The notes under the pieces are model-generated. The model was given only the letters and a program-made list of their open reading frames with translations. It had not been told where the DNA came from and made no database searches. Below are positions 11,848 through 37,097 of a stretch of DNA of 64,000 nt, piece after piece; position 1 is the first letter of the stretch, and the number at the start of each line of letters is the position of its first letter. Source of the DNA: Frankia casuarinae (GTDB lineage Bacteria > Actinomycetota > Actinomycetes > Frankiales > Frankiaceae); NCBI RefSeq assembly GCF_000013345.1, contig NC_007777.1, positions 1,054,001 to 1,118,000 on the forward strand, in the 5' to 3' direction. Made by a program: the position numbers and the translations under genes.

Positions 11848-11970
11848 GGGCCGGGTCCCGGGGCGGGGTGTCCCTCGACGGCGGGCGGTGCGGACCGGTT
11901 GCCCGGTTGCCCGGTCGTCTGAGTAGGCGTACCACTACCTAGCGCGAGTTTGTCGCTGGGGGTGGTGCGG

Positions 11971-18054: not shown

Positions 18055-19530
18055 AACTGTGACGTCATAAGGTCATGAGGCCGCTGCCGTGGATGTTCGA
18101 TCGGTGGGATCCGTGGGATCCGCGGCGGTGCCGATGATCTACGACCTCAGATTCGAGCCGCGAACCCCGGTGCGCCACCGCGCGGGACGCGGTCGCCGGC
18201 ACCTGATCCTCCGATGACGGCGATCATGATCGACCTCTCCATCGGGGCCGCCGGCATTTCGGCGCGAAGGGATGAGGCGAGAGGCCGGTCCCGATGATCG
18301 AGCAGTGGCGGGAACGGACACCCTGCGTGTCCGTTCCCGGTGCCGACGGCCGCGTGCCGATGATCCCACCCGGGTGACAAAGCCGGTCCGTGGTAATCGA
18401 TCTGGCCTCGCCTGACCGGTCCCGAGGGTCATGTCCTGCACGCCCCGCGACGACTGTCGCTTATTGTGGCTGAAATGTTGCCATTGGCATCCCTATTGAG
18501 GTCGTTGCCGGAAAGTTGATCGGATAAGCTTGCGATCGACGGCGCGCTGTGACTAGGTTGGCCGATGTCCCTTCTGGTCCGCATGGGGTCTGAAGGAGTC
18601 AGTCTCCGTCCGTCAGCGCCTGACCCGGCCGGCGGCGACCACGATCGATTTTCAGGACGGTGTCCGCCCGTGGTTCCATACCTCCCGGGGCGTCGTCCTC
18701 GCATCCGATTTCTCCAGGCCCTGCGCGTGCGGGCGTGTGTTGCCGGAAAGTAGCCACATCTGTTCATCGCCGCATTAGATGATCGATTCTGAAGAGAAAC
18801 CGCCGCGACCGGCGACCGGGATAGCGACCTGCGTGATACTCATTCGTAACCTCCATCGATGGCCGCAGCGATTGATGACGTCGCCCGGTGCACACCCCTG
18901 CGGGCTCTGTGTAATCCCGATCCGCGACATCGTCATCGATGTCCGGCGGTGGGCGAGCCGGCGACTGGATGTCGTCCGAACCTGGTCACGGCGACCGCGC
19001 CAGTGGTCCGATGGGCCCACGATCACCGCTGTGGTCCGGCACCGCGCAATGATCCCAACCGAGCCGGCTAGTATTCCGCGCACGTTGGCAATCCCGTGTC
19101 GGCTAATCGGATGCGGCCGCCGTGGGACCGGGGGACACCAGTTCCGCGACAGCCTGTTGGGGGTTGGTTCGTTTTTCGCATACTCAGGGCGGATGCGGCT
19201 TCCCGGATGTCTGCCGTCCCGACGGCACTGACCAGGAGGTCTGGATGGTGCGGGCGGTCCTGTCGTCCGAAACAAGTCGATCATGCTGGTTCGGTGGGTG
19301 AGTTCCATGGCCTCGATGCGCCGCCGCGACGATCGTGCGGCAGCGGACGCGCTGCCGGCCACGGGTCTGCCGGCTGCCCGCCTGCCCTTGAGGTGCCCGC
19401 CCACGCGGACCAGCGATTACCCGCCCATCCGGACCAGCGATTGCCCGCCCATGCGGACCAGCACAGCTCCCTCAGCCTCTGCCCCCTCAGCGCCCTGCCT
19501 CAGGCGGGGACCGGTCGGGAGGACCAGCCG
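18055..19530. other. 1.5-kb gene-free leader before the polyketide cluster
   Basis: No frame here resembles a protein. The region has several lower-GC pockets (about 18460-18560 and 18770-18800), which could contain promoters, and a 24-bp triple repeat at 19395-19466 close to the polyketide synthase start. The length suggests a long 5' leader, a small RNA or a decayed gene. I cannot distinguish these by eye. Confidence 0.5.
19395..19466. repeat. 24-bp tandem direct repeat upstream of polyketide synthase
   Basis: Three units of 24 bp share the core GCCCAC/TnCGGACCAGC and end 64 bp before the ATG at 19531. They keep an in-frame reading (PAHADQRL) with the synthase frame, but the strong ribosome-binding site lies downstream of them. 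I read them as non-coding, either a possible regulator-binding array or the relic of an extended N-terminus. Confidence 0.8.
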
Positions 19531-22500
19531 ATGACCACTGCACCCAGCGCGTCACCCGTGGCCTCGCCGGCCAATCCCGCCGACCGCGATCCGCTCGACG
19601 CCCGCGAGCTGGTCGTGGTGATCACGCCGTTCGCCGAACCGTCCGCGTCCCTGGTCGCCGCGGTGCAGCGGGCCGGAGGGCTCGGGGTGCTGGATCTCGG
19701 GCTGCTGGCCGGACCGGCGCGTGATGCGCTGCGGGACGCCGCGCGGTGGGCGCCGGGCCGGTTCGGGGTGCGGGCTGCCCCCGGCTGCCCCCTCGATCCC
19801 GACGAGCTGCCCGCGAGCGTCGGGACCGTCGTACTCGTCGCCCGATCCGGTCCGGATCCCCGATCCGGCCCCGTCGCGTGGGCGGATGCCGGGCCGGGCC
19901 CGGGGAGCCGCTGGGACATCGGCGCGCTGACGAGCCGGTGGCGGACGAGCGGGCCGCGTGGAGAGGCGCGGCGCCGGGTCTGGGCGGAGGTCACCTCGGT
20001 TGCGCAGGCGCGCGACGCGGTGGCGGCGGGGGTCGAGGGACTGATCGCGCGAGGCAACGAGTCCGGGGGGCCTGTGGGCGACCTCACCACCTTCACCCTC
20101 CTGCAACATCTGCTCGCGCAGGCGTTCGTCACCACCGAGGGCGCGCCGCTGCCCGTGTTTGCCGCTGGCGGGATCGGTCCGGCCACCGCGGCGGCCGCGG
20201 TGGCCGGCGGCGCGGCCGGTGTGGTCCTGGACTCCCAGCTCGCCCTGGTGCGTGAGATGGAGCTGCCGGCACAGGTCGCGGCGGCGATCCGCGCGATGGA
20301 CGGCAGCGAGACCACCCTCCTCGCCGGCTACCGGGTGTACACCCGCCCCGATCTGCCCGTCGCCGCCATGACGGGCGCCGCCATGGCCGGCGCTGCCACG
20401 GCGATCCCGTTCCGGCTGGGTGCGCGTGATCTGCGTAACCAGTTTCTCCCGGTCGGCCAGGACGGAGCGTTCGCCGCCGATCTCGCCGACCGCCACGTGA
20501 CCGCGGGCGGTGTCGTACGGGCCGTGCGTCAGGGCATCCGCGAGGGCATCGCTGCCGCCGCCCGTACCCGTCCCCTCGCCCCCGGTGCGCCCTTCGCCGC
20601 TGCCCGCGGCCTGCGCCACCCGGTCGCGCAGGGACCGATGACGCGGGTCAGCGACCGGGCGGCGTTCGCTCATGCCGTCGCCGACGAGGGCGGGCTGCCT
20701 TTCCTCGCCCTGGCGCTGATGAGCGGCGAGGACAGCCGCGCCCTGCTGGAGGAGACCGCGGACCTGCTCGGGGACGCGCCCTGGGGGGTCGGGGTCCTCG
20801 GGTTCGCCCCGGCGCCGCTGCGGGCCGCCCAACTCGCCGCCGTGCATGACGTGCGTCCTGCCTGCGCGATCGTCGCCGGAGGTCGCCCGGCACAGGCGGC
20901 CCCGCTGGAGGCCGCCGGCATCGACACGTTCCTGCATGTCCCGTCCCCGGGGCTGCTGAACCGTTTCCTGGCCGACGGCGCGCGCAAGTTCGTCTTCGAG
21001 GGGCGTGAATGCGGCGGGCACGTCGGGCCGCGGGCGAGCTTCCCGCTGTGGGAGGCGCAGATCGCCGGCCTGCTGGAGTTCGGCACGACCGATCAGGCCG
21101 GTCCGGACTTCTTCGCGGGCCTGCATCTGCTGTTCGCCGGGGGCGTGCATGACGCCCGTTCCGCTGCGATGGTCGCCGCGGCGGCCGGGCCGCTCGCCGA
21201 GCGGGGCGCGAGCGTCGGCGTGCTGATGGGCACCGCGTACCTGTTCACCGCCGAGGCCGTCGCGTCCGGGGCGATCCTGCCGGGTTTCCAGCAGGCCGCT
21301 CTCGACTGCGAGCGCACCGTGCTGCTCGAGACCTCTCCCGGTCATGCCACCCGGTGCGTGGAGTCCGCGTACGTCCACACCTTTCTGGGCCGTCGCCGTG
21401 AGCTGATCGCCGCCGGCAACTCCCGCCAGCAGATGTGGGAGGAGCTCGAGGCGCTCAACCTCGGCCGGCTGCGGGTCGCGAGCAAGGGCCTGCGCCGTGA
21501 GGGCAGCGAGGTCGTCACGGTCGATCCCGCGACCCAGGCCCGGGACGGCATGTACATGATCGGACAGGTCGCCGCCCTGCGTTCGCGGCGGACGAGCATC
21601 GCCGAGCTGCATGACGAGGTCACCGCGCAGGCCACGGCCGGGCTCGCCGCCCGCTCCGCCGAGCTGCGCTCCGCCGAGCCGCGGCCCGCCGACAGGAGCG
21701 CGGCGCCCGGCCGCCCGGCCGCCCGGCCGCTCGACATCGCGATCGTCGGGATGTCCGCGATCTTCCCGGACGCCCCGGACCTGGCCAGCTTCTGGGCGAA
21801 CATCGTCGCCGGCAACGACGCCATCCGCGAGGTCCCGGCCGATCGCTGGGATGCCGAGGTCTACTACCACCCGGACGCGGTGCTCAGGGACGCTGGCCGC
21901 AGGACGCCGTCGAGATGGGGCGGTTTCCTCCCGCAGGTGCCGTTCGACGCGCTGGCCTACGGTATCCCGCCGAAGTCGCTGCGCAGTATCGAGACCAGCC
22001 AGCTCCTCGCGCTGGAGGTCGCCGCCCGCGCGCTGCGCGGCGCCGGGTACGACGCGGGCCAGAAGGACGTGGGCCAGAAGACCGCCGGCGAGAGTCGGGC
22101 GTTCGACCGCTCCCGCACGTCGGTGGTCTTCGGCACGGAGGCCGGGACGGATCTCTCCGGTGCCTACAGCTTCCGCTCCCTGTGGCCGGCGCTGCTCGGG
22201 GACCTGCCGGCCGAGCTGGAGGAGTTCCTGCCGGAGCTGGACGAGGACTCGTTCCCGGGCATGCTCGCGAACGTCATCGCTGGCCGGGTCGCCAACCGGC
22301 TGGACCTCGGCGGGGTGAACTTCACCGTGGACGCGGCCTGCGCGTCGTCGCTCGCCGCCCTCGACGCCGCCTGCAAGGAGCTCGTCGCGGGCACCTCGGA
22401 CATGGTGCTGTGCGGCGGCGTGGACACCCACGCGGGCGCCCACGACTTTCTGCTGTTCTCCTCCGTCCATGCGCTGTCTCCGGGCGGTCGGTGCCGCAGC

Positions 22501-25500
22501 TTCGACGCGGGCGCCGACGGCACCAGCCTCGGTGAGGGGGTGGCCGTCGTCGTGCTCAAGCGGCTCGCGGACGCCGAACGGGACGGCGACCGGATCCACG
22601 CCGTCATCCGGGCCGTCGCCGGTTCCTCCGACGGGCGGGCCCTGGGGCTGACCGCGCCGCGCAAGGCCGGCCAGGTGCTCTCCCTGGAACGGGCCTACGG
22701 GCGGGCGGGGATCTCGCCCAGCGAGATCGGTCTGCTGGAGGCGCACGCGACCGGAACGGTCGTGGGGGACCGCACCGAGCTCGCCACCCTCACCGAGGTC
22801 TTCACCAACCACGGTGCGACGCCGGGCCAGTGCGCGGTGGGTTCGGTGAAGTCGCAGATCGGGCACACGAAGTGTGCGGCGGGCCTGGCCGGTCTGATCA
22901 AAATGGCCAAGGCCGTCGAGACCGGGGTACGGCCGCCGACCCTGCACATCGACACGCCGAACGCCTATTGGGACGCCGAGAGCAGCCCGTTCTACTTTGA
23001 CGACGTCGCCAAGCCGTGGGTTGCCCCGGCCGAGCGGCGCCACGCCGGCGTGTCGGCCTTCGGATTCGGCGGCACCAACTTCCACGTCGTGCTGTCCGCC
23101 TATGACGGCGGGCCCGAGCCCGCCCACGGCCTCGACAGCTGGCCCGCGGAGTTGTTCGTCGTCCGCGGCACCGACCGGGCGGCGGCCACCCGGGCGCTGG
23201 ACCGGCTGGCCGAGCTGATCGTCGCGAACGACGCGGCCGGACGGCCGTTCCGCCTGCGTGACCTCGCCTCCACCGTCTGCGCGGAACGCGGCGGCCCGGT
23301 CCAGCTCGCGTTCGTCGCCGACGACCTCGACGCGCTGCCCACCGCCATCGACCAGGCGCGCACGTTCACGTCGAACCCTCGGGCGGGTCTGTTCGTCCGG
23401 GACCAGGACGCGGATCCGGGTGCCACCGCGTTCCTCTTCCCCGGTCAGGGCAGTCAGCGGCCCGGCATGCTCGCCGACCTGTTCATCGCCTTCCCACGGC
23501 TGCGGTCCGTGCTGGACCTCGCCCCCCGGTGGGCGGACACGATGTTCCCGCCGGCGGCCTTCTCCCGGGAGCAGAAGGCCGCCCAGGCGGCCGCGATCAC
23601 CGACACCCGTGCGGCCCAGCCGACGCTGGGGCTCGCCGGGCTTGCCGTCCACGACCTGCTGACCAGCCTCGGGGTGCGCCCGGACCACGTCGCCGGGCAC
23701 TCCTACGGCGAACTGGTCGCGCTGTGCGCCGCCGGGGCGCTGGACCGGCGGGACCTCATCGGCCTGAGCGAGGCCCGTGCCGCGGCGATCCTGGCAGCCG
23801 CTGGCGACGACCCGGGCACGATGGCGGCGGTCTCCGCGTCGGTCGAGCAGGTCCGCGCCGCGCTCGACGGGGCCGTTACGGGTGGGGAGGCCGGACCGGG
23901 CCGGGTCGTCGTGGCCAACCACAACGCCCCGCGGCAGAGCGTGATCTCCGGGCCGACGGACGCCGTTGCCGCCGCCGTGGCGGCTCTCGGCCGGGCCGGC
24001 ATCAGCGCCAAGCCGATCCCGGTCGCGTGCGCCTTCCACAGCCCGGTGGTGACGGAAGCGGCGACGGCGCTGGCCGCCCGGCTCGATGAGGTCGAGGTCG
24101 AGGCGCCGACCCTGCCGGTCTGGTCCAACACGACCGCCGGGCCCTACCCCGGCAGCCCGGACGAGGTGCGGGCGACGCTCGCCGGTCAGGTGGCGGCGCC
24201 GGTCAGGTTCGTCGAGCAGATCGAGGCGATGTACGCCGCGGGGGTGCGGACCTTCGTCGAGGCCGGGCCCGGCCGCGTCTTGGCGCAACTCGTCGGCAGA
24301 ATTCTGGCCGGTCGACCGCACCGGGTGGTGGCCACCGACGTCGCCGGCGAGCCGGGGCTGCGCCGGTTGCTGCTGGCCCTCGCCGAGCTCGCCGCCGTCG
24401 GTGTCGAGCTCGACCCCTCCGCGCTGTTCACCGGCCGCGACGCCCGGGTGGTCAGCGCGACGGACCTGCCGCGCCGTCCCGGCTGGCTCATCGACGGGGC
24501 CTATGTGCGCACGCCCGACGGCCGGTTCCTTCCTGGTGGGCTGCGGCCGCCGACCCGGCTGACGGTGCGGACGACGTCACCCGGGGTCGCCTCCGTGCCC
24601 GGGGCCGCATCCGTGCCCGAGATCGTCGGCGTGCGCGGGTTCGTCGAGGACACCGTGGCGCCGGCTCCCCCGTTCGACCGCGCCGGCGTGACCGACCACA
24701 GCGAGACGACCGACGACCCTGCGGCGGGGCCCGCCGGACTGGCCGAACTTGGAGGTGACGGACCGGTGGACGCCGTGGTGCTGGAGTTTCTGCGAACCAC
24801 CCGGGAACTGGTCGCGGCGCAACGTGACGTCGTACTGGGCTACCTGGGCATCGACCCGACCGGCCTGGCCCGGCCCGGCCAGCTCCCCGAGGGGCGGCCG
24901 GCGGACCTTGTGCGGCCGCGGCCGGGGGTCGTGTCTGACGACGTGCCGGGCTTCGTGCCGCCGCGGCCGGGGGTCGTGTCTGACGACGTGCCGGGCTTCG
25001 TGCCGCCGCGGCCGGGGGTCGTGTCTGACGACGTGCCGGACATGGCTGCCGCGAGTCGGGTGGTGCTGGACCGGGCCGCGGTGTCGGCCGCGGTGGTGGG
25101 GGTGATCGGGGAACAGACGGGTTATCCGGTGGAGATGCTGGAGCCCGATCTGGATCTTGAGGCCGACCTGTCGATCGACTCGATCAAGCGGACGGAGATT
25201 CTGGGGGAGCTGGCGCAGCGGCTGGGTCTGGTGGATGCCGGGTCGGGGGAGCTGGGCGAGGAGGCCGTCGAGGAGCTGGCGGCGATCAAGACTGTCCGCG
25301 GCATCGTCGACTGGCTGACGGACCCGCCGGGTGCGGTGTCCGGGGTGCCCGGTGCGGGGGAGGTGGATCTGGTGGCTGCGGTGGATCGGGTGGCTGCCGC
25401 GAGTCGGGTGGTGCTGGACCGGGCCGCGGTGTCGGCCGCGGTGGTGGGGGTGATCGGGGAACAGACGGGTTATCCGGTGGAGATGCTGGAGCCCGATCTG

Positions 25501-27417
25501 GATCTTGAGGCCGACCTGTCGATCGACTCGATCAAGCGGACGGAGATTCTGGGGGAGCTGGCGCAGCGGCTGGGTCTGGTGGATGCCGGGTCGGGGGAGC
25601 TGGGCGAGGAGGTCGTCGAGGAGCTGGCGGCGATCAAGACTGTCCGCGGCATCGTCGACTGGATCGTCGCGTCGGTGGATCCGGATGCCGCCGGCGCGAC
25701 CGAACCGGCCGAGCCCACCGGGCCCGGTCGGTCCGCCGGAGTCGCGAAGTCCGGGGGGGCCGGCTCGACAGCCGCGATCCCGCTACGGCGGTTCGTTGTC
25801 GAACCGGAGATCGTCCCCGTGCCCTCGACCCCGGAGCCGGTCGGACGTGCCGGGTCGCTGGCCGGGGCCCGCTTCCTTCTCGTCGAGGGTGGTCTCGGGG
25901 TCGGACTCGAGCTCGCCACGTTGCTGGAGCAGGCGGGTGCCGAGGCCCGCATCCTCGCTGCCGACGACCGGGGCCTGGTCGGTCAGGTTCGAGCCGGCGC
26001 CGGCGCGGACGGCCTGGTGTGGATCGCCTCGATCGATCCCGGTGCCGGCGACCACGCCGTTCTTCCTGCCGCGTTCGCGGCACTGCGGGCCGCGGCCCTC
26101 GGCGGCAGCCGGCGGATGCTCGTCGCGACCGGGCACGGCGGGCGCTTCGGTCGCCCGTCGCCCCACGGCACCGGAGCGCTCGCCCCGGGCGACGCCGGGG
26201 ACGAGGGGATCCAGCTGACCCCGGGGATGGGCCTCGCCGGCCTGGTGCGCACGATCGCCTGGGAGGTTCCCGACATCGCGGTCCGCCTCGTCGACGTCGA
26301 ACCGAAGGACGAACCGCGTCGGATCGCCGAGAGCCTGCTCGTCGAGCTGCTCACCCCCGGCGGGCCGTCCGTGGTGGGTTACCGTGACGGGGTCCGCGCG
26401 ACCCCGCGGATCCGGCCGGTGGAGCTGGGCGTCGCGGGCGACGTCGGCGACGTGGGTGCGGCGGGCTATGCGGGCGAACTGCCCGCCGAGCTCGGTCCCT
26501 CCTCGGTGGTGCTGCTCACCGGTGGCGCGCGGGGTATCACGGCGGCCGTCGCCGTGGAGCTCGCCCGGCGCAGCGGCTGCGCCATCGAGCTGATCGGGCG
26601 TACCCCACCGCCCACCGGACCGGAGGATCCGGTGACGGCGGATGCGCTCGACGCCCCGGCGCTGCGCCGCGCGCTTGTCGCCACCGGCGTCCGCCGGCCG
26701 GCCGAGATCGAGTCCCAGGTGGCCCGGTTGCTCGCCGAGCGGGAGGTGCGCACCACGCTGGAGGTCCTTGGTCGGCTGGCCTCGTCGGTGCGTTACCACG
26801 CGATGGACGTGCGTGACGGCGCCGCCGTTGCCTCGGTCGTGGCCGACGTCTACGCCCGCCACGGTCGCCTCGACGGCGTGGTGCACGGTGCGGGCATCCT
26901 GGCGGACCGACTCCTGCGGGACAAGACGCCCGAGTCGTTCGACCAGGTGTACCGAACGAAGATCGACGGTGCCCGGGCGCTGCTGGCGGCGCTGCGGGAC
27001 GACGTCGGCTTCGTCGCCCTGTTCGGGAGTGTCGCGGGCGTCTTCGGCAACCGCGGCCAGGTCGACTACGCCGCCGCGAACGACGCCCTGGACACGCTCG
27101 CCGGTGCCTGTGCGGGCCGCTTCGCCGGCCGGGTGGTCAGCGTCGACTGGGGTCCCTGGGGATCCGCGCGGGACTTCGTGGCACGGGCCGGCGGACCGGC
27201 CCCCGCGGTGACCGGGGGCGCGGTGGCCGGTGCGGCCGGTGTGACCGGCGGTGGGATGGTCTCCCCGGAGCTTGCCCGGGAGTACGCGCGCCGTGGCATC
27301 GGCCTGATCGATCCCGCCGACGGGGTGGCCGCCCTGCTGCGGGAGCTGGCCGCTCCGGCGGGCACGCCCGCGCAGGTCGTCTACATGTGCGCCTCGGTGG
27401 AGTCGTTCGATGCCTGA
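19531..27417 (+). CDS. PUFA-synthase-like polyketide synthase: NPD-NPD-KS-AT-ACP-ACP-KR
   Basis: The ATG at 19531 follows GGAGG by eight bases and gives 2628 aa. Domains in order are as follows. Two TIM-barrel NPD/PfaD-like flavin domains come first (about 30-300, weaker, and 360-700, with EGRECGGHVGP and LLFAGGVHDARSA), probably enoyl reductase. The KS (734-1180) has the complete Cys937, His1072, His1112 triad. The AT (1300-1600) has FPGQGSQ and GHSYGE, Ser1391. Two ACPs of the PfaA type (DSIKR, phosphopantetheine sites Ser1884 and Ser2000) are almost identical. The KR (2110-2560) has LTGGARG, Ser2500 and Tyr2513. This is the architecture of iterative PfaA/HglE-type synthases that build long acyl chains, with the PfaD function fused in front. 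It overlaps the next synthase by 8 bp, so the two are made together. Confidence 0.92.
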   Translation: MTTAPSASPVASPANPADRDPLDARELVVVITPFAEPSASLVAAVQRAGGLGVLDLGLLAGPARDALRDAARWAPGRFGVRAAPGCPLDPDELPASVGTVVLVARSGPDPRSGPVAWADAGPGPGSRWDIGALTSRWRTSGPRGEARRRVWAEVTSVAQARDAVAAGVEGLIARGNESGGPVGDLTTFTLLQHLLAQAFVTTEGAPLPVFAAGGIGPATAAAAVAGGAAGVVLDSQLALVREMELPAQVAAAIRAMDGSETTLLAGYRVYTRPDLPVAAMTGAAMAGAATAIPFRLGARDLRNQFLPVGQDGAFAADLADRHVTAGGVVRAVRQGIREGIAAAARTRPLAPGAPFAAARGLRHPVAQGPMTRVSDRAAFAHAVADEGGLPFLALALMSGEDSRALLEETADLLGDAPWGVGVLGFAPAPLRAAQLAAVHDVRPACAIVAGGRPAQAAPLEAAGIDTFLHVPSPGLLNRFLADGARKFVFEGRECGGHVGPRASFPLWEAQIAGLLEFGTTDQAGPDFFAGLHLLFAGGVHDARSAAMVAAAAGPLAERGASVGVLMGTAYLFTAEAVASGAILPGFQQAALDCERTVLLETSPGHATRCVESAYVHTFLGRRRELIAAGNSRQQMWEELEALNLGRLRVASKGLRREGSEVVTVDPATQARDGMYMIGQVAALRSRRTSIAELHDEVTAQATAGLAARSAELRSAEPRPADRSAAPGRPAARPLDIAIVGMSAIFPDAPDLASFWANIVAGNDAIREVPADRWDAEVYYHPDAVLRDAGRRTPSRWGGFLPQVPFDALAYGIPPKSLRSIETSQLLALEVAARALRGAGYDAGQKDVGQKTAGESRAFDRSRTSVVFGTEAGTDLSGAYSFRSLWPALLGDLPAELEEFLPELDEDSFPGMLANVIAGRVANRLDLGGVNFTVDAACASSLAALDAACKELVAGTSDMVLCGGVDTHAGAHDFLLFSSVHALSPGGRCRSFDAGADGTSLGEGVAVVVLKRLADAERDGDRIHAVIRAVAGSSDGRALGLTAPRKAGQVLSLERAYGRAGISPSEIGLLEAHATGTVVGDRTELATLTEVFTNHGATPGQCAVGSVKSQIGHTKCAAGLAGLIKMAKAVETGVRPPTLHIDTPNAYWDAESSPFYFDDVAKPWVAPAERRHAGVSAFGFGGTNFHVVLSAYDGGPEPAHGLDSWPAELFVVRGTDRAAATRALDRLAELIVANDAAGRPFRLRDLASTVCAERGGPVQLAFVADDLDALPTAIDQARTFTSNPRAGLFVRDQDADPGATAFLFPGQGSQRPGMLADLFIAFPRLRSVLDLAPRWADTMFPPAAFSREQKAAQAAAITDTRAAQPTLGLAGLAVHDLLTSLGVRPDHVAGHSYGELVALCAAGALDRRDLIGLSEARAAAILAAAGDDPGTMAAVSASVEQVRAALDGAVTGGEAGPGRVVVANHNAPRQSVISGPTDAVAAAVAALGRAGISAKPIPVACAFHSPVVTEAATALAARLDEVEVEAPTLPVWSNTTAGPYPGSPDEVRATLAGQVAAPVRFVEQIEAMYAAGVRTFVEAGPGRVLAQLVGRILAGRPHRVVATDVAGEPGLRRLLLALAELAAVGVELDPSALFTGRDARVVSATDLPRRPGWLIDGAYVRTPDGRFLPGGLRPPTRLTVRTTSPGVASVPGAASVPEIVGVRGFVEDTVAPAPPFDRAGVTDHSETTDDPAAGPAGLAELGGDGPVDAVVLEFLRTTRELVAAQRDVVLGYLGIDPTGLARPGQLPEGRPADLVRPRPGVVSDDVPGFVPPRPGVVSDDVPGFVPPRPGVVSDDVPDMAAASRVVLDRAAVSAAVVGVIGEQTGYPVEMLEPDLDLEADLSIDSIKRTEILGELAQRLGLVDAGSGELGEEAVEELAAIKTVRGIVDWLTDPPGAVSGVPGAGEVDLVAAVDRVAAASRVVLDRAAVSAAVVGVIGEQTGYPVEMLEPDLDLEADLSIDSIKRTEILGELAQRLGLVDAGSGELGEEVVEELAAIKTVRGIVDWIVASVDPDAAGATEPAEPTGPGRSAGVAKSGGAGSTAAIPLRRFVVEPEIVPVPSTPEPVGRAGSLAGARFLLVEGGLGVGLELATLLEQAGAEARILAADDRGLVGQVRAGAGADGLVWIASIDPGAGDHAVLPAAFAALRAAALGGSRRMLVATGHGGRFGRPSPHGTGALAPGDAGDEGIQLTPGMGLAGLVRTIAWEVPDIAVRLVDVEPKDEPRRIAESLLVELLTPGGPSVVGYRDGVRATPRIRPVELGVAGDVGDVGAAGYAGELPAELGPSSVVLLTGGARGITAAVAVELARRSGCAIELIGRTPPPTGPEDPVTADALDAPALRRALVATGVRRPAEIESQVARLLAEREVRTTLEVLGRLASSVRYHAMDVRDGAAVASVVADVYARHGRLDGVVHGAGILADRLLRDKTPESFDQVYRTKIDGARALLAALRDDVGFVALFGSVAGVFGNRGQVDYAAANDALDTLAGACAGRFAGRVVSVDWGPWGSARDFVARAGGPAPAVTGGAVAGAAGVTGGGMVSPELAREYARRGIGLIDPADGVAALLRELAAPAGTPAQVVYMCASVESFDA
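24916..25039. repeat. 45-bp coding tandem repeat in AT-ACP linker
   Basis: Two identical 45-bp units and a third partial one encode PRPGVVSDDVPGFVP repeats just ahead of the first ACP. Exact identity points to recent duplication. The repeat lengthens the flexible linker between acyltransferase and carrier domains. Confidence 0.9.
25043..25662. repeat. Duplicated ACP-coding segments, 272 bp, one mismatch
   Basis: Bases 25043-25314 and 25391-25662 are the same 272-bp sequence offset by 348 bp. I find a single difference (C versus T at 25265/25613, giving Ala or Val). Each copy encodes a whole acyl carrier domain with the DSIKR site. Synonymous positions are identical too, implying very recent duplication or gene conversion. 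Confidence 0.92.
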
Positions 27418-30400: not shown

Positions 30401-32632
30401 CCGCCGGCCTGGGCCGAAGGTGACGTGCCGACGCATCCGGTGATTGCCGAGCTGCGGGCCGCGCTCGCCGAGGCGGACGCGGTGATGTCCACCGTGGTCG
30501 ACCGCTGGTCGCATGGGGCGACGCCGGCTCGGGTCCCCCCGCCCGGATCGGGGGGCAGGGCGATCCCGGGCGATGCGATCCCGGGCGGCGTGCGGTCGGG
30601 CGGCGTGCGGTCGGGCGGCGTGCGCGGTGGTGCTCGGTTCCGCGCCGACGATGCTCCCCGGGGCGGTGGCACGTCCGGCGGTGCCGGCGGAAACGGCGAC
30701 GCGGGTTCGACGGGCGTCCCTCCTCGCCGCGGCGCGAGCGCGGCCGACGGCGGGGCGGCCGGTCGGGGCACGGGCGCCGATCGGACGTCCGCGGTGGGCT
30801 GGGTACCCGTGCCCCGTGACAGTCCCGAACCCGGGCCGCGGATGTTCCGGCGACGGCTGTCGCTGGCGTCGATGCCGCACATCGTCGACCACTGCTTCTA
30901 CCGTCAGCCGCCGGGCTGGGCGGACATATCCGATCTGTTCCCGGTCGTGCCGATGACCGAGGTCCTCGAGCTCATGATCGGCGAGGCCGCCGCGCTGCTG
31001 CCGGGCCGGGTGCCGGTCGGTGTCCGAGACGTCCGGGCGTTGCGCTGGCTCGCGATCGAGCCGGCGGTGGAGGTGTCCATTGCGCTCGCCCCCGCGGGGC
31101 CGGACGCGGTGCGGGTGACCGTGGACGGCTACGCCCGCGGCACGGTGCTGTTCGCGGCGGACCACCTGCCGCCGCCCGAGTCAACCGCGATCACCGCCGA
31201 TCTGTCCGTGGGCCGGACGGGCCCGACGCTGCCCGTCGAGCGGCCCCCGCGGCATCGTGGCAGGGATCTCTACGGGGCCCGGTTCCTCTTCCACGGTCCC
31301 GGCTACCAGGGCATCCATCGGATCGAGGCGATCGCCCCGACCGGTATCCGGGGGCGTCTGCGGGTGCCGTCGGCGTCCGGCGCCCTGCTCGACAACGTGG
31401 GCCAGCTCTTCGGCTACTGGGCGATGGAGCATCTGTCCGACGACTCCCTCCTGCTCCCGCAGTCCCTGGCCGACGTGCAGTTCCACGGCCCGGCACCGGT
31501 GGAGGGCGACCTGGTGGACTGCGTCGTACGGATCCGGCAGGTGGCCGAGCGCACGGTGACCGCGGACATGGAGGTGCGGCGGGCCGACGGACGTGTCTGG
31601 GCGGTCATCACCGGGTGGACCGACCGCCGGTTCGCCAACGACGACGTGCTCTGGGCGATGGTGCGTGCACCGGAGTTGAACACGGTGGCCCAGCCCTCCG
31701 GTGAGGGCTGGGTGGTCGCCGTGGACCGCTGGCCCGACGCGGCCTCGCGGGAACTGATCGTGCGCCACTACGCCGATGCCGCCGAGCGTGCCCGGCTCGC
31801 CGCGCTCAACCCCAGGGCGGCACGCGGCCGGCTGTTGGGACGGATCGCCGCCCAGGACGCAGTCCGGCGATGGCTGTGGGAACGGGGAGCGGGGCCCGTC
31901 TGGGGGATCGAGGTCGGGATCCGTAACGACGACGTGGGTGCCCCGGTCATCACCTCCCTGCCGGCGCGGCCGGGTGTCCCAGCGTTCGACCCCCCGGGGG
32001 TGTCGCTCGCCCACAAGCCGGAGCTCGCCGTGGCCTTGGTCGCCGCGGACGGGGAGGTTGGCATCGATCTTGAGCGGATCGTGTCCCGCGCCGCCGGGGT
32101 CGAGAAGGCGGCCCTGGCGCCCACCGAACTGCGCCTGCTCGACCGGGTCGCCGGCACCGATCCTCACCGGCGGGCCGTGTGGTTCACCCGGCTGTGGGCG
32201 GCGAAGGAGGCGGCGGCGAAGGCCGACGGAACGGGCCTCGCTGGCCGTCCACGTCGGTTCGTCGTGGACGGCCCCCATCCCTTCCCGGGGAAGGCCCATT
32301 CCCCGGGAAGGGATGGGCTCGCGTCCTCCCCGGTGGGGGGCACCCCGCCCGACCTGGTCCGGGTCACCGTCTACGGGGATGGTCCCGACGGGTCGGTGCC
32401 GGAGCGGACCCGGTGGGTGGCGTTGCGTACGGTGGACGCCGCCGGCCGGATTCAGCCGGAACCGACCGGCCCGGCGCCCCGCGAGGGCGGGGTATCGCCG
32501 TCGCGGCGTCAGGACGCTGTGGGCGATGACGTCTCCACCGGAAGAGTCGATATCGCTACCGTCAGTTATGTAGTCGCCTGGACCTCCCCCGAGGTCGAGG
32601 CGCATGGTCTCCAGAGCCAGAAGGAGTGTTGA
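27410..32632 (+). CDS. Polyketide synthase with fused phosphopantetheinyl transferase: KS-AT-DH-PPTase
   Basis: The ATG at 27410 overlaps the previous stop by 8 bp; the protein is 1740 aa. The KS (25-470) keeps Cys258, His396 and His441. An AT-like domain (640-950) has GHSIGE (Ser711) but lacks the usual GQGSQ loop, reading FLFCGLEDKF instead. A Pro/Gly-rich linker (1000-1140) follows. Then comes a double-hotdog dehydratase (1150-1410) with HIVDHCF (His1157) and the LLDNVGQLFG helix (Asp1328, Gln1332). A C-terminal Sfp-type PPTase (1490-1660) has GIDLE (Asp1553) and WAAKEAAAK (Lys1599, Glu1600). The fused PPTase would activate the ACPs of this locus. A perfect hairpin lies inside the PPTase-coding region. 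The partner role resembles PfaC/HglC-HglD combined. Confidence 0.9.
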   Translation: MPEPGAGPGGRSASGSRSASGGGAPPIALVGMAALFPGAGDLGTFWGNIVGGVDAIREVSPERFDVDDYFRPDLFRPDPPRGDRPGAGPGGVGRPGGVGSPGGASDAFYCRRGGFVEEFASFDPAAFGIMPLAVDWAEPDQLLSLRLAAEAITDAGGPERLGDAERVGVVLGRGGYVGPGVAKLEQRVRTSRQIVTTLREILPDLPAEAVERVREAFVAQLGPQRPEASIGLVPNLAASRIANRLDLRGPAYTVDGACASSLIAVDMAMRDLGSGRTDAMIVGGAHIVHEASFWSVFTLLRALSPSEIIRPFDRRADGILIGEGVGMVVLKRLADAERDGDRIYAVLRGSGTSSDGRSASLMAPAVEGQTLAVRRAWADAGLDPTAPGAIGLVEAHGTATPTGDAVELATLSRIFGTASGGPAGPGRADIGIGSVKSMIGHAMPAAGAAALIKTALALHHRVLPPTLHCDEPHPAFVGSRFAPVRAVVEWDAPAGGGPRRAGVNAFGFGGINAHLVLEEAPAPAAVTAARTFAAPAVTTVDRAADPDVGPDVEPVLLFAGADAADLLAQLDVPDAELLARDDAATPPTGGPWRLALVAPTARRLALARTVVERGTPWRGRNDLWFTPAGMFAPARAGGDSPAQTAFLFCGLEDKFTPRIDDVCEHFGLTKPTLDDTGMLGRHGVASVEVGRILDVALRRLGIIPDLVGGHSIGEWNAMISCGLITDEYTDDFLAGFDPTALEVPGVVFGALGCGAQRATEVIAGLDEVVVSHDNCPHQSIICGREDSVRTTLDRLRRDGVLGQILPFRSGFHSPFLEPYLDPMRARLARTTFVEASVPIWSATTVAPYPSDHDAIRALALRHLVEPVRFRQLVERLRERGVRAFIQVGVGSVAGFVDDTLPGNDHLSLVTNTVKRPGLDQLRRVAAAMWAEGAAPRMDLLPCRSRPAPAVPPLPRAANGPHRVGAPVRLSLGTPLIRLGGGAGDLLNPGSADRTHRNPPAWAEGDVPTHPVIAELRAALAEADAVMSTVVDRWSHGATPARVPPPGSGGRAIPGDAIPGGVRSGGVRSGGVRGGARFRADDAPRGGGTSGGAGGNGDAGSTGVPPRRGASAADGGAAGRGTGADRTSAVGWVPVPRDSPEPGPRMFRRRLSLASMPHIVDHCFYRQPPGWADISDLFPVVPMTEVLELMIGEAAALLPGRVPVGVRDVRALRWLAIEPAVEVSIALAPAGPDAVRVTVDGYARGTVLFAADHLPPPESTAITADLSVGRTGPTLPVERPPRHRGRDLYGARFLFHGPGYQGIHRIEAIAPTGIRGRLRVPSASGALLDNVGQLFGYWAMEHLSDDSLLLPQSLADVQFHGPAPVEGDLVDCVVRIRQVAERTVTADMEVRRADGRVWAVITGWTDRRFANDDVLWAMVRAPELNTVAQPSGEGWVVAVDRWPDAASRELIVRHYADAAERARLAALNPRAARGRLLGRIAAQDAVRRWLWERGAGPVWGIEVGIRNDDVGAPVITSLPARPGVPAFDPPGVSLAHKPELAVALVAADGEVGIDLERIVSRAAGVEKAALAPTELRLLDRVAGTDPHRRAVWFTRLWAAKEAAAKADGTGLAGRPRRFVVDGPHPFPGKAHSPGRDGLASSPVGGTPPDLVRVTVYGDGPDGSVPERTRWVALRTVDAAGRIQPEPTGPAPREGGVSPSRRQDAVGDDVSTGRVDIATVSYVVAWTSPEVEAHGLQSQKEC
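32274..32317. repeat. Perfect 17-bp inverted repeat inside the PPTase-coding region
   Basis: The arms at 32274-32290 and 32301-32317 (core CATCCCTTCCCGGGG) are exact reverse complements around a 10-nt loop. The segment is translated in frame as a Pro/Gly-rich insertion after the PPTase signature helix. It looks like an inserted hairpin element or an intragenic transcription attenuator. Confidence 0.8.
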
Positions 32633-33012
32633 TGATGTCTGCGCAGAGCACGACGAGGCAGGGTCCTCCCGGCCCGGATCCGGACGACCGCACCGACGCC
32701 GTCACGCGGGCCGAGGCCGAGGCCCGGATCCTCGGCGAGGTCACGGAGCTCCTGCGGGAGGTGATCGGGGAGGAGTACGTCGTGGACATGGAGATCACGA
32801 TGGCCACCTCGTTCAATCAGGATCTCGAGCTGGAGAGCATCGAGTTCGTGGCGCTGGCCGACCGGCTGCGTGGGCGCTACGGCGAGGCGGTGGACTTCGT
32901 CGGCCTCCTTGCCGACATGGACGTCGACCAGGTGATCAACATGCGGGTCGGCGAGGTCGTCCACTTCATCGTCGACAGCCTCCCGACGCTGGCGCCGGCG
33001 GGATCGGCCTGA
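32632..33012 (+). CDS. Discrete acyl carrier protein
   Basis: The ATG at 32632 shares its A with the preceding TGA and has AAGGAG five bases upstream. The protein is 126 aa. After a ~30-residue Gly/Asp-rich leader the ACP fold runs from about 35 to 115. The predicted phosphopantetheine serine is Ser69 in LELESIEFVALADRL. The residue before it is Glu, not the usual Asp. The protein is very acidic (VDMEITMATSFNQDLE). It is probably a carrier that receives or extends the chain made by the two synthases, or presents it to the hydrolase or transferase encoded next. Confidence 0.85.
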   Translation: MMSAQSTTRQGPPGPDPDDRTDAVTRAEAEARILGEVTELLREVIGEEYVVDMEITMATSFNQDLELESIEFVALADRLRGRYGEAVDFVGLLADMDVDQVINMRVGEVVHFIVDSLPTLAPAGSA

Positions 33013-33018
33013 AGGCCC

Positions 33019-33972
33019 GTGGCTGAGATCATCGCGAACGGGATCCGGCTGCACGTGCAGCGACTGGCGCCCAGGGGCGGAGCGTCCACGGACTCGCCGG
33101 TCGTCGTGATGGTGCACGGCATGGTGATGGACAACATCTCCAGCTTCTACTTCACGCTGGGCAACTGCCTCGCCGATGCCGGCTGCGACGTCATCTGCTA
33201 CGACCTGCGCGGCCATGGGCGCAGCGAGCGGACCCGCGGCGGCTACGAGCTGGCGGACTCGATGGCCGATCTGCTCGGGCTGCTCGACGAGCTCGGGGTG
33301 GATCGCCCGGTGCACCTGGTGGGTAACAGTTACGGCGCCACGATGGCGCTGGCTTTCGGGCTGGAGTTCACCTCCCGGGTGGCGAGCCTGACGCTGATCG
33401 AGCCGCCGTTCCTGATCGAGGGTCTTGGCGAGGAGATGGCCCGATCGCTGACCCAGATCCTCGTCGCGATGACCGACGAGGAGGTCCAGGAGTGGTTGGA
33501 CAACGGCGCCGGACGCGTGGCCAGCCGCGCCACCCGGGCCGCGCAGCGGCTGCTGCAGGAGACGACGATCGCCACCGACATGCTGGCGACTCCGCCGTTC
33601 TCCACCGAGGCGCTGGCCGCGCTGAACGTCCCGGTGCTCGCGGTGTACGGGGAGAACTCCGACATCATCGGGCAGGCTGCGGGCCTGGCCGCGCTGGTGC
33701 CCGAGTGCACCCTGATCGTCCTGGAGCACCACACGCACATGGTGCTGCGGGAGGCCGCGCACTACCTGCGGGACCTGCTGCGGTGGTGGTTGTTCCGCCG
33801 CCAGACGCCGCCGCCGCCCTACGTGCGCGCGAACGGCCGGCGCTTCGCCACCCCGGACTGGGTGACGCAGCGGGTGCCGCCGCCCGATCTCAACGCCGAG
33901 CGCCGGCCGGCCCCGATCTCGGCCGACGCGGCAGTTGCGGCCGGCGAGGGGCGTGAGGGGCGAGGGGCGTGA
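33019..33972 (+). CDS. Alpha/beta hydrolase (thioesterase or acyltransferase candidate)
   Basis: The GTG at 33019 lies 6 bp after the ACP stop; the protein is 317 aa. The fold is a standard alpha/beta hydrolase: oxyanion-hole VMVHGMVMD, GHGRSERTRGG, nucleophile elbow GNSYGA (Ser104), and the late His in LEHHTHMVLRE. A Pro/Arg-rich C-terminal tail of ~40 residues is added. In this setting it most likely releases the chain from an ACP as acid or ester, but hydrolase families are broad and the substrate is inferred from context only. Confidence 0.83.
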   Translation: MAEIIANGIRLHVQRLAPRGGASTDSPVVVMVHGMVMDNISSFYFTLGNCLADAGCDVICYDLRGHGRSERTRGGYELADSMADLLGLLDELGVDRPVHLVGNSYGATMALAFGLEFTSRVASLTLIEPPFLIEGLGEEMARSLTQILVAMTDEEVQEWLDNGAGRVASRATRAAQRLLQETTIATDMLATPPFSTEALAALNVPVLAVYGENSDIIGQAAGLAALVPECTLIVLEHHTHMVLREAAHYLRDLLRWWLFRRQTPPPPYVRANGRRFATPDWVTQRVPPPDLNAERRPAPISADAAVAAGEGREGRGA

Positions 33973-33982
33973 GAAGAGTCTG

Positions 33983-35173
33983 ATGAGCCGCGTGCTGTTC
34001 GTGGTGCCGCCCCTGACCGGGCATGTCAACCCGGCGGTCGGGGTCGCCGCCGAGCTGGCCGCCCGTGGTCACGAGGTGGCGCTCGCCGGGTACGCGGGCG
34101 TCATCGGATCGTTGATCCCGCCGGAGCTGGCCCTGCTGGCGTTACCCGAGGCGGGCCTGGGCGAGAAGTGGTCCCGGATCCAGGACGCGTCTCGGGCGCT
34201 GCGGGGGCCGGCGTCGCTGAAGTTCCTGTGGGAGGACTTCCTGCTCCCGCTCGGCTCGATGATGGCCCCGGCGATCGACAGGATCATCGACGACTTCCAG
34301 CCCGACCTGCTCGTCATCGACCAGCAGGCGGTGGGCGCCGCGCTCGTCGCCCGTCGCCGGGGCCTGCGCTGGGCGACCCTCGCGGCGACCTCCGCCGAGT
34401 TCGACAATCCTTACGGGGTGCTCGCGGGCCTGGGGCAGTGGGTCGTCGACCGCCTGCGGGAGTTCCAGACCGGGCACGGAGTGCCGCCCGACGAGGCTGC
34501 CATCGGGGACCTGCGCTTCTCCGAGGCGTTGACCCTCGTCTTCTCCGTCCGGGAAATGCTGCACAATCCCGGGATCCCGGACTACGCGGTCTTCGTCGGC
34601 AGCGCGGTCGGGAAACGGGCCGGGGCGGGCGAGTTCCCCTGGGACTGGCTCGACCCGGCCCGCCGGGCGGTGCTCGTCTCCCTCGGCACGGTGACCCGGG
34701 AGGCCGGCGGTCGGTTTCTGCGGGCGGCGGCCGAGGGGCTGCTCGGCCTGCCCGAGCGGGTACAGGCGATCGTCGTCGCCACACCCGGGCTCGTTGACGA
34801 CCTCGCCGCCGCGGCGCCCGACGATCTGCTGGTCGCGCCGTTCGTGCCGCAGGTCGCGTTACTTCCGCGGTTGTCGGCGGTGGTGTGCCACGCCGGCAAC
34901 AACACCGTCTGTGAGTCGCTGTCACACGGGGTTCCGCTGGTGGTCGCCCCGGTTCGCGACGATCAGCCGATCATCGGCGAGCAGGTCGTCCGTAACGGGG
35001 CCGGGGTGCGCGTCAAGTTCGGTCGGGCCGGACCCACCGCCGTGCGTTCCGCGGTGACGGCCGTGCTGGACGATCCGTCGTACCGGGCCGCCGCCGCCCG
35101 GATGCGGGCCGCCTTCGCCGCGGCCGGCGGGGTGGCCGCCGCCGCCGATCACCTTGAGAAGCTGGCGGTCTGA
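33983..35173 (+). CDS. GT1-family glycosyltransferase (macrolide/UGT-like)
   Basis: The ATG at 33983 gives 396 aa. The N-terminal Rossmann domain starts VLFVVPPLTGHVNPAVGVA, with the acceptor-side GHxxP motif of GT-B enzymes. The C-terminal nucleotide-sugar domain carries VPQVALLPRLSAVVCHAG, NNTVCESLSHGVPLVVAP and RDDQPIIGEQV. This is the UGT/MGT signature: HAGnnT, then the D-Q pair binding the sugar nucleotide. It probably transfers a hexose to a hydroxyl of the lipid made by the cluster. The sugar donor cannot be read from sequence. Confidence 0.9.
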   Translation: MSRVLFVVPPLTGHVNPAVGVAAELAARGHEVALAGYAGVIGSLIPPELALLALPEAGLGEKWSRIQDASRALRGPASLKFLWEDFLLPLGSMMAPAIDRIIDDFQPDLLVIDQQAVGAALVARRRGLRWATLAATSAEFDNPYGVLAGLGQWVVDRLREFQTGHGVPPDEAAIGDLRFSEALTLVFSVREMLHNPGIPDYAVFVGSAVGKRAGAGEFPWDWLDPARRAVLVSLGTVTREAGGRFLRAAAEGLLGLPERVQAIVVATPGLVDDLAAAAPDDLLVAPFVPQVALLPRLSAVVCHAGNNTVCESLSHGVPLVVAPVRDDQPIIGEQVVRNGAGVRVKFGRAGPTAVRSAVTAVLDDPSYRAAAARMRAAFAAAGGVAAAADHLEKLAV

Positions 35174-35234
35174 TGCTCGGTCTGGCGGTCCGGTGATCGG
35201 TCTCGTGGTCTGATGCTCGAACGGTTCTGACGTC

Positions 35235-37097
35235 GTGCTGACATGGTTGCCGATCCTGGTGTGTGCCGGTCTGGCGATCAACGGTGTGCGGCTGCGCGGT
35301 CGGCTGCGTCGTCTCGACACCCTGCCGGCCTCCGGTCGCCCGGTGGACCCCGCGCATGAGTTCCTCGTCGCGACCGGGGTCCGCCTCTCCGACAGCGGCC
35401 GACGGGCGGCCAGTTACCACGCCAGCCGGGACCGGCTCGACGTGCTCGACCTCGTCCCGGCGGACCTGACGGCCGAACGGGCGCTCGACCTCGCCCGGAT
35501 GGTCGACACCCGCACCTACCGGGCCGACCGCTGCGTGCCCGGCCGCGGCGCCTTCCAGGCGCTGCTGGTCCACTCCGAGATTCTCCAGCGGGCTGGGATC
35601 ACCCGCCGGGACGGTTTCGACCCGGTGGAGCTCGTCGACATCACCGAGCGGCTGAAGACCTTCGCCTCCGGCTCGACGGATCTGGCGGTGCTGCCGGGGC
35701 TGCGTGCCGCCCGGGACGACGCGGCGATGCGTGTCCGCGTCCAGCAGCGGGCCTACCGGTTCACCCGGCAGAACCAGCTCTTCCCGTTCGTACCCCAGAT
35801 CGCCACCGCGATCGGCTTCCATGTGAACCAGCCGTTCGGCCTCGCGGCCATGGCGCTGTTCTGGTTCCAGCCGTTCTTCGTCTGCGCCGGCCGGGTGCCG
35901 CTGTCCCCGCGCGATCTCATTCGTTCTCCCATCGTGCGCATCCTCGGCGGGGTGCTGTTCGTGGTCGACTCCGTGCGGGCCGGCCGGGCGCAGGCCGTGA
36001 AGGCGGCTGAGGCGAAGGCCGCCGGGCTTCCTCCGGACCCGGTCAAGCATGCGGCCAGGCAGGAGACCGCCGCCAGCCGCGCCTCCTACTCCCAGGACGT
36101 CCAGGCCGGCCTCGACCGGTTCCTGCGCCACGACCGGGCCGACTGCCCCTGGTGCGGATCGGTCGAGCTCGCCACCCGGGTGGAGTCGCCGGACCTGCTC
36201 CTGCGCAAGCCCGGTTCCTTCCGGCTGGACGGCTGCGAGCGCTGCGGGCATGTCTTCCTCAACCCGTCGTTGAGCCCGGCCGGGCGTGAGTTCTACGACC
36301 GGGACCGCTACGACGGCCTGCGCACCGATGTCGCCGAGCAGGTCCTGGCCGCGATCGCCCGCGAGCGGCGCGAGCAGGCTGCCGCCGTCCGACCGTTCGT
36401 GGTGCCACGGACCTGGCTGGACGTGGGGGCCCGGTACGGTCACTTCGCCAACGCGGCCCGAGAGGTGTGGCCGAGGACGGTGTTTGACGGGCTCGACACC
36501 TTTCCCGGCCTGGCCAAGGGCCTGGCGCGCGGCTGGATCGACCACGCCCACTACGGCCGTTTCTCCGACGTCGTCGACAGCCTCGCCGGCCGGTACGACG
36601 TCATCAGCATGTTCGACTACCTGGAACGCCGCGACGACCCGTCGGCGGAGCTCGACGCCGTCGCGAAGGCGTTGCCGCCTGGCGGGCACGTCGTCTGCGA
36701 GCTGGCCAACGCCGACTGCCGGCAGGCCCGCTGGCTCGGCCGGTTCTGGCCCGGCTGGGCGGTCCCCGAGCGCGCCCACTTCATCCCCGCGGAGAACCTG
36801 ATCGCCGCGCTGGAGGACCGGGGGCTGCGGCCGGTCGCGGTGCGCTTCGCCGCGGCGCGCCGTCCCGGTGGGCTGACCGGCGCCCTGCTGCTCGCCGTGG
36901 CCATGATCGCGCCACGCCCCATGCCGTGGCTGCCCCAGCAGGCCGGCCCGGTCGGCGCGGCCGGCCGCGTCCTGGTGATGCTTGTGGCCAGCCCCCTACT
37001 GGGACTGGCCCGCCTCCTCGACCGCCTTGCCGGCCGGTACGCGCACGACGCCCGGTACGCCGGCACCTACCTGATGATCGCCCGCAAGGAGCTCTGA
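35235..37097 (+). CDS. Two-part protein: unknown N-terminal domain, zinc ribbon and SAM-methyltransferase-like domain
   Basis: The GTG at 35235 gives 620 aa. Residues 1-290 are unfamiliar, with an N-terminal hydrophobic helix and a Trp/Phe-rich segment (FGLAAMALFWFQPFFVC). A CxxC...CxxC zinc ribbon follows (Cys304, Cys307, Cys334, Cys337), as in the methyltransferases that begin with a rubredoxin-like ribbon. The class I methyltransferase domain starts at about residue 394 (LDVGARYGHFANAA; then VISMFDYLERRDDP and LPPGGHVVCELANAD). The C-terminal ~70 residues include hydrophobic stretches. It may methylate the lipid or its sugar. The acceptor residues normal for the family are hard to assign, so catalysis is unproven. 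Confidence 0.7.
   Translation: MLTWLPILVCAGLAINGVRLRGRLRRLDTLPASGRPVDPAHEFLVATGVRLSDSGRRAASYHASRDRLDVLDLVPADLTAERALDLARMVDTRTYRADRCVPGRGAFQALLVHSEILQRAGITRRDGFDPVELVDITERLKTFASGSTDLAVLPGLRAARDDAAMRVRVQQRAYRFTRQNQLFPFVPQIATAIGFHVNQPFGLAAMALFWFQPFFVCAGRVPLSPRDLIRSPIVRILGGVLFVVDSVRAGRAQAVKAAEAKAAGLPPDPVKHAARQETAASRASYSQDVQAGLDRFLRHDRADCPWCGSVELATRVESPDLLLRKPGSFRLDGCERCGHVFLNPSLSPAGREFYDRDRYDGLRTDVAEQVLAAIARERREQAAAVRPFVVPRTWLDVGARYGHFANAAREVWPRTVFDGLDTFPGLAKGLARGWIDHAHYGRFSDVVDSLAGRYDVISMFDYLERRDDPSAELDAVAKALPPGGHVVCELANADCRQARWLGRFWPGWAVPERAHFIPAENLIAALEDRGLRPVAVRFAAARRPGGLTGALLLAVAMIAPRPMPWLPQQAGPVGAAGRVLVMLVASPLLGLARLLDRLAGRYAHDARYAGTYLMIARKEL

Follow-up and report, generated by a model that had tools for sequence, protein, structure and literature searches.

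Within a 64-kb window of the Frankia casuarinae CcI3 genome (the whole stretch of DNA analysed, positions 1,054,001 to 1,118,000 of contig NC_007777.1), six genes, designated a to f, appear to form an operon whose product is best read as a glycosylated fatty acid with a very long, mostly saturated chain, which would be family-wide in the Frankiaceae and not vesicle-specific; this reading, made from sequence, is given a probability of roughly 0.5. It is favoured because a ketoreductase (KR), a dehydratase (DH) and a His-bearing FabK-like NPD2 are present in the domain set, because the a-f gene order is conserved while the cluster is near-universal in the family and sparse across the phylum, and because the Frankiaceae ketosynthase (KS) copies group as expected from descent. 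A saturated chain is proposed because the domain order is the same as that of the ArsA- and ArsD-like proteins of Beijerinckia, which Shulse and Allen (PMC3098273) place in Type P with the ars system of Azotobacter, a relative described there and in PMC4824345 as making saturated chains of C22-C26 (or C23-C25). No characterised product for the cluster was found in the open-licence literature.

All six genes were called on the + strand, spanning 19531-37097 of the window. Besides KR and DH, the domains recognized were acyltransferase (AT), acyl carrier protein (ACP), phosphopantetheinyl transferase (PPTase), glycosyltransferase (GT) and S-adenosylmethionine (SAM)-dependent methyltransferase. 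The genes, with the evidence for each in brackets, are the following:

19531..27417, + strand: gene a, NPD-NPD-KS-AT-ACP-ACP-KR iterative synthase, 2628 aa (Pfam, NCBIfam, ribosome-binding site)
27410..32632, + strand: gene b, KS-AT-DH-PPTase, 1740 aa (Pfam)
32626..33012, + strand: gene c, putative discrete acyl carrier protein, DLELESI (weak NCBIfam matches and motif)
33019..33972, + strand: gene d, alpha/beta hydrolase, GNSYG, candidate releasing enzyme (Pfam, motif)
33983..35173, + strand: gene e, GT1 (macrolide-type) glycosyltransferase, listed open reading frame (ORF) start 33935 (Pfam, NCBIfam, start-site check)
35235..37097, + strand: gene f, predicted membrane GT-A-like domain (aa 1-~290) and zinc-ribbon SAM methyltransferase (aa ~300-620) (Pfam, predicted structures)

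Genes a and b overlap by 8 nt, and b and c by 7 nt, taking GTG 32626 as the start of c; the gaps are of 6 nt (c-d), 10 nt (d-e) and 61 nt (e-f). The most likely start of gene a is the ATG at 19531, preceded by GGGAGGA, and not the longest-ORF GTG at 19096; for gene e the ATG at 33983 is more likely than the TTG at 33935. Thus, the original prediction of six same-strand, overlapping or closely spaced genes with these domains is borne out by the ORF coordinates and Pfam, and the glycosylated, probably methylated long-chain lipid that it proposed is still the most economical product to be drawn from the domains. It had also called the locus self-contained and equipped with its own PPTase; the enzyme is indeed there (ACPS/PPTase match in gene b, 1.4e-10), so the description applies to ACP activation, but not to the rest, as no sugar-nucleotide or export gene was seen among the six. 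A 24-nt x 2.8 tandem repeat (19396-19462) lies a short way 5′ of gene a. Further upstream, on the same strand, two LuxR-family regulator genes are found (11950-15678 and 16906-18054), the nearer being separated from gene a by about 1.5 kb of non-coding DNA.

In gene a, Pfam identified two NMO stretches, KS, AT, two PP-binding stretches and KR, and in gene b KS (1.5e-51), AT (3.9e-17) and PS-DH (3.1e-9) in addition to the PPTase, with neither a chain-length factor (CLF) nor a FabA-type DH found in gene b. The active-site residues are kept in KS (DAACAS and DGACAS), AT (GHSYGE and GHSIGE) and KR (YAAAN). The domains were placed as follows:

19591..20520, + strand: NPD1, flavin-reductase-like, GNESGGP without His, probably non-catalytic (motif comparison)
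20536..21645, + strand: NPD2, FabK/NMO-like enoyl reductase, GRECGGH (NCBIfam TIGR03151, 89 bits, below cut-off; motif)
21733..23217, + strand: KSa, Cys present, DAACAS (Pfam, motif, trees)
23431..24309, + strand: ATa, GHSYGE...ACAFHS, malonyl-type by its motif (Pfam, motif)
25043..25314, + strand: ACP1-coding repeat copy, DLSIDSIK (motif, repeat analysis)
25391..25662, + strand: ACP2-coding repeat copy, 100% identical to copy 1 over 272 nt (repeat analysis)
26506..27162, + strand: KR, GQVDYAAAN (Pfam, motif)
27488..28975, + strand: KSb, Cys present, DGACAS, own clade (Pfam, motif, trees)
29462..30073, + strand: ATb, GHSIGE...RSGFHS (Pfam, motif)
31265..31642, + strand: DH, PS-DH (Pfam)
32057..32254, + strand: PPTase, ACPS, VSLAH motif (Pfam, motif)

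The His of the GGH motif is thus absent from NPD1, which has GGP here, and present in NPD2. Among 71 matched loci (six further loci, unmatched, lie outside this count), the residue following the GG of NPD1 was R in 50, V in 7, A in 5, L in 5, and P, W, S or H in one each. For NPD2, H was found in most of the 80 matched rows, with R, P or other variants at or near the motif in 6. For gene c, no Pfam match was obtained and the NCBIfam ACP matches were far under their cut-offs (best 22.4 bits), while a DLxLESI-type carrier motif was found in 29 of the 32 relatives with a gene c match that were examined. The two ACPs of gene a are encoded by a perfect 272-nt direct repeat, preceded by a 45-nt x 2.9 tandem repeat (24910-25039); the identity of the two copies suggests a recent duplication or gene conversion.

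As to the class of the synthase, the polyunsaturated-fatty-acid-synthase-like assignment of the original prediction is not supported. Against the PfaA model TIGR02813 (cut-off 1010.1), gene a scored 937.7 bits (1.3e-281) and gene b 438.1 bits, both under the cut-off, while another CcI3 locus used as a control scored 1733.1 bits, above it. Moreover, neither NPD1 nor NPD2 gave a significant alignment with the CcI3 PfaD, CLF and FabA-type DH are missing as stated above, and the PPTase has a different motif: among 34 loci examined, hShxH occurred in 31 (gene b of the window having VSLAH) and FNxSH in none. In PMC3098273, PPTase motif classes separate Types M-T from Types A-L, the latter including Pfa and Hgl, and the hShxH motif fits the former and not the latter. 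Sequence searches of solved structures with the synthase returned generic polyketide synthase (PKS) matches only.

In a tblastn search of plasmids, the best non-actinobacterial matches were found in Methylosinus and Beijerinckia, with about 45% identity over KS-AT. In Beijerinckia, the gene for an ArsA-like protein (NPD-NPD-KS-AT-ACP-ACP-KR) is followed by two type III PKS-like genes and then by one for a DH-PPTase protein; NPD2 and KSa are 52% and 49% identical to their counterparts there, and both Beijerinckia and Methylosinus have the same pattern of NPD1 without and NPD2 with the GGH His. Two KS trees were built: a first of 73 rows, chosen from >200 KS segments with three FabF-like rows dropped, and a second of 32 rows. 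In both, Ars was represented by the homologues on Methylosinus pMSC49a and Beijerinckia pBIND02, and HglE was absent. KSa was sister to the Beijerinckia and Methylosinus sequences with supports of 96/87 (73 rows, with one odd Rhodobacteraceae row between) and 89/90 (32 rows), while KSb formed a clade of its own. The phylogeny proposed along with the original prediction therefore leans to Ars, but it does not reject a grouping with PfaA (see below).

The Ars-like architecture also bears on another type of product, a glycosylated phenolic lipid, for which the long acyl chain would be passed, as in ars, to a type III PKS whose gene lies outside the operon. There is no type III PKS among the six genes, and the sole PF02797 match of the genome, a type III PKS-like gene at 2,865,707, supplies a candidate partner; however, it lies about 1.8 Mb away, and in its place the operon encodes a hydrolase and a further KS-AT, so that a phenolic lipid is considered improbable.

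Regarding distribution, the named relatives of gene b at 64-76% identity belong to Frankia and Parafrankia strains, and gene b, searched by its DH-PPTase part, was found in 32 of 35 Frankiaceae genomes, compared with 7 of 296 genomes in a sample across the phylum (own genome included). In 31 other Frankiaceae genomes, taking the best loci with at least 5 kb of sequence downstream of b, genes c, d and e followed b in 28 of 28 and gene f in 26 of 28; such a conserved order indicates that the cluster is more than chance. Outside the family, the operon was found in Streptomyces, Kitasatospora, Actinomadura, Actinoplanes, Acidimicrobiales and others. Among 49 non-Frankiaceae loci with 6.5 kb downstream, gene c was kept in 43, e in 42, d in 36 and f in 20; since these loci were drawn from only the best 80 of at least 414 relatives, with 13 Frankiaceae loci set aside, the counts describe close relatives. 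In the 73-row tree, the Frankiaceae KS sequences formed one clade with the nif-minus genus g7 outermost, as descent predicts, and these data are best explained by a cluster that is ancestral to the Frankiaceae and scattered through the rest of the Actinomycetota. Some Frankiaceae genomes also contain a second, diverged copy (L080, Frankia sp. QA3; G003:C86; G034:C58). Two cluster-2-like genomes (G022 and G024) had been considered to carry pseudogenes, which was dropped as the loci of the split matches contain 2881 and 1922 N. Furthermore, in Streptomyces sp. NBC_01243 (L164), the whole a-f operon, with insertion sequence elements close by, is carried by a linear plasmid of 869 kb that was typed as mobilizable, and this plasmid is a possible route of horizontal spread.

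The same distribution weighs on the earlier suggestion that a Pfa/Hgl-type synthase makes here a hydroxylated or unsaturated long chain that forms a vesicle-envelope glycolipid in Frankia. In favour of this, KSa and PfaA are related, as the E-value against TIGR02813 indicates and as the topology test given below leaves unrejected, the ACPs are in tandem, and a GT is encoded inside the operon. Moreover, 25 of the 35 Frankiaceae genomes have a nifH match above the family cut-off, and 24 of these 25 carry gene b. However, gene b was also present in 8 of the 10 nifH-less genomes (Fisher p 0.19, relatedness not corrected), and since relatives without nitrogen-fixation genes carry the cluster, a special vesicle lipid is unlikely. 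The same operon occurs in other actinomycetes, which are not known to form vesicles, and the cluster has no CLF, FabA DH/I or PfaD. The complete genome G025, the nifH-positive exception, retains gene a as an uninterrupted frame of 2634 codons, while b-f were not found on the rest of the 40-kb contig of gene a and b and d, the only two searched genome-wide, had no match there either; this genome had been counted as locus-less, which was dropped once gene a was found. The cluster also falls outside the symbiosis phyloprofile, which collects genes shared by clusters 1-3 but missing from cluster 4: Table 1 of PMC10252897 has no entry between 1,300,029 and 1,792,140 of F. alni ACN14a, where the locus lies at about 1,645,655-1,663,941. 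Genome G001 was taken as this strain from its nifH (7,420,685), PfaD (3,473,920) and second PfaD (1,796,252), given the positions of FRAAL6813 (7,420,646), FRAAL3195 (3,473,917) and FRAAL1675 (1,796,237) in that table. Neither the locus tags of the CcI3 transcriptome paper (PMC3188489) nor the entries of a nodule proteome table of over-abundant proteins (PMC8951365), which gives no such tags, could be matched to the six genes. A vesicle-specific role was set aside on distribution as the leading idea, and the vesicle-envelope glycolipid as a whole has become quite unlikely.

A better candidate for a vesicle lipid is the locus that served as the control above, a true Pfa-type locus of CcI3, unlinked to the cluster (G000:C1:3,446,200-3,464,000; L096 and L097; PfaA match at 3.455-3.463 Mb). 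It encodes a KS-AT-ACP4-KR protein, a FabA-domain protein, a PfaD with a FabD helical insert, and AccDA and AccC (acetyl-CoA carboxylase). Its ACN14a counterpart is FRAAL3194-3196, which is listed in the symbiosis phyloprofile (PMC10252897, Table 1), and the PfaD locus was found in 21 of 25 nifH-positive but in 3 of 10 nifH-negative Frankiaceae genomes (p 0.004, relatedness not corrected, with fragments and paralogues included in the counts), the exceptions being three nif-minus genomes with the locus and four nif-plus genomes without it. This tracking of nifH, together with the phyloprofile entry, makes the PfaA/PfaD locus the better vesicle-lipid candidate and the Ars-like locus, judging by gene distribution, a poor one. 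As a tentative extension, the two synthases might divide the labour, with the Ars-type two-KS locus and its GT-A/methyltransferase fusion providing an ancestral family-wide glycolipid and the nifH-tracking PfaA/DH/PfaD/acetyl-CoA-carboxylase locus a non-hopanoid lipid for nitrogen fixation or the vesicle envelope.

The tailoring genes were assigned by Pfam to the alpha/beta hydrolases (d), the UDPGT/EryCIII-like proteins (e) and Methyltransf_23 (f), the latter match covering the methyltransferase part of f only. An AlphaFold model of full-length f (pLDDT 81.9) best matched MtmC (Z 21.4, 2.8 Å, 240 residues, from residue 296 and with the zinc-ribbon part included), followed by UbiG (Z 20.4) and the sugar C-methyltransferases KijD1 and TcaB9 (Z 19-20); with many SAM methyltransferases scoring so close behind MtmC, no substrate of gene f can be deduced. 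A sequence search of solved structures with gene f gave one weak methyltransferase match. The first 300 residues of f, folded alone (pLDDT 78.6), resembled membrane GT-A synthases, with the Chlorella virus hyaluronan synthase as the best match (Z 9.7, 4.8 Å, 245 residues, 6% identity), and the 50 structure matches listed were all, by title, glycosyltransferases of the broad GT-A kind, although Foldseek gave no match for this half under E 0.001. We infer from the predicted fold a degenerate or divergent membrane GT-A-like domain. The original prediction had mentioned neither this domain nor the missing His of NPD1. No relative of this half was found in plasmids, and the f proteins of the Streptomyces type are shorter and lack it (e.g. 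355 aa in L164).

These genes lend some weight to a possible, if doubtful, alternative in which the product, instead of a structural lipid, is an antibiotic or signal that is secreted, namely a polyketide or fatty acid bearing sugar and methyl groups. Gene e is nearest to the macrolide GT subfamily (TIGR01426, 149.4 bits, cut-off 260), the methyltransferase half of f resembles the deoxysugar methyltransferases MtmC, TcaB9 and KijD1 (Z 21.4 to 19), the cluster is patchy in Streptomyces and Actinomadura, and the two LuxR-family genes lie upstream. However, no deoxysugar, exporter or resistance genes are found among the six, near-universal presence in the Frankiaceae would be unusual for an antibiotic, and the full reductive set implies an alkyl chain.

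Several observations weigh against the saturated-chain glycoside. The support of the KS trees for Ars over PfaA is moderate (96/87 and 89/90), and in an approximately unbiased (AU) test constraining KSa with PfaA cost 5.2 log units and was not rejected (p 0.246). The NCBIfam matches of d and e were under every curated cut-off, so their substrates are not fixed and e could act on a polyketide. In addition, 30 of the 130 best KSa matches missed the DAACAS pattern; among 17 of these examined, 11 had DAACAAS, the pattern having been too strict, while 6, all from Actinomadura (L036, L070, L074, L086, L088 and L095), had the Cys apparently replaced, and KSa would therefore be dispensable in some relatives. 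Gene d was mostly not found downstream in this subgroup, which suggests that there KSb may carry the chain building, or that the product differs.

For the family-wide glycoside, a saturated very long chain would be built iteratively on the tandem ACPs of gene a, its length and saturation being proposed by analogy with Ars. KSb-ATb with carrier c would perform a separate last condensation or a hand-over, probably leaving a beta-keto or beta-hydroxy end, after which hydrolase d would release or transfer the chain, GT1 e would add a sugar and the membrane-bound fusion f might methylate the product at the membrane, with the order of these steps and the methylation site being provisional. The distribution suggests that the lipid would be a general envelope or hyphal/spore component of the Frankiaceae.

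The type of synthase has probably been catalogued already as Type M, with CcI3 included (PMC3098273). New contributions of the present analysis are the placement near Ars, the glycosylation and methylation genes joined to this synthase by a conserved order, the predicted GT-A-like N-terminal part of f, and evidence that counts against a vesicle role. If correct, these results name a conserved lipid pathway of the Frankiaceae without a known product, the shift from the Pfa/Hgl to the Ars-like class predicts a saturated rather than a polyunsaturated chain, and the cluster would cease to be a prime vesicle-envelope candidate, with attention moving to the specific second locus. The latter is worth testing because the hopanoid operon is unaltered in several CcI3 mutants affected in the envelope (PMC12501873).

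Among known systems, Shulse and Allen (2011, PMC3098273) report a secondary lipid synthase of Type M, with an uncharacterised product, from Frankia CcI3, ACN14a and EAN1pec. The genome list and the PPTase motif class (M-T) agree with the cluster, which is probably this Type M, although the main text of that paper does not mention a GT. With Ars, whose architecture is the nearest of those compared, the cluster shares the ArsA-like domain order followed by DH-PPTase, the distribution of the GGH His between NPD1 and NPD2 and the hShxH motif; however, its DH-PPTase is fused behind an additional KS-AT, whereas the ArsD-like protein is a separate DH-PPTase, and the operon lacks a type III PKS and adds an ACP, a hydrolase, a GT and a membrane methyltransferase. 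Like PfaABCD, it has an iterative KS-AT-tandem ACP-KR synthase with a related KS and two ACPs in this case, but it lacks CLF, FabA-type DH/I and PfaD and is under the PfaA cut-off. In enediyne PKSE, KS-AT-ACP-KR-DH-PPTase are found in one protein, while the cluster has two proteins with two KS, and a plasmid-borne PKSE lies outside the KSa clade in both trees. The hgl systems (Type F) likewise use a type I synthase for long chains and include a glycosylation step. They differ in that HglC is KS-CLF-AT without DH (PMC3098273) and gene b is KS-AT-DH-PPTase, in that their PPTase motif P1b is (F/S)NxSH (class A-L) as opposed to VSLAH/hShxH, and in that the cluster does not track nif. The comparison with Pfa and Hgl, which the original prediction had proposed as a check, thus finds the tandem ACPs shared, but not CLF, FabA DH, PfaD, the HglC architecture or the FNxSH motif. 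Given the score below the PfaA cut-off, the Beijerinckia architecture, the leaning of the KS trees (built without HglE) and the PPTase motif, the cluster is filed as a putative variant near Ars, and not as an ars, pfa or hgl system.

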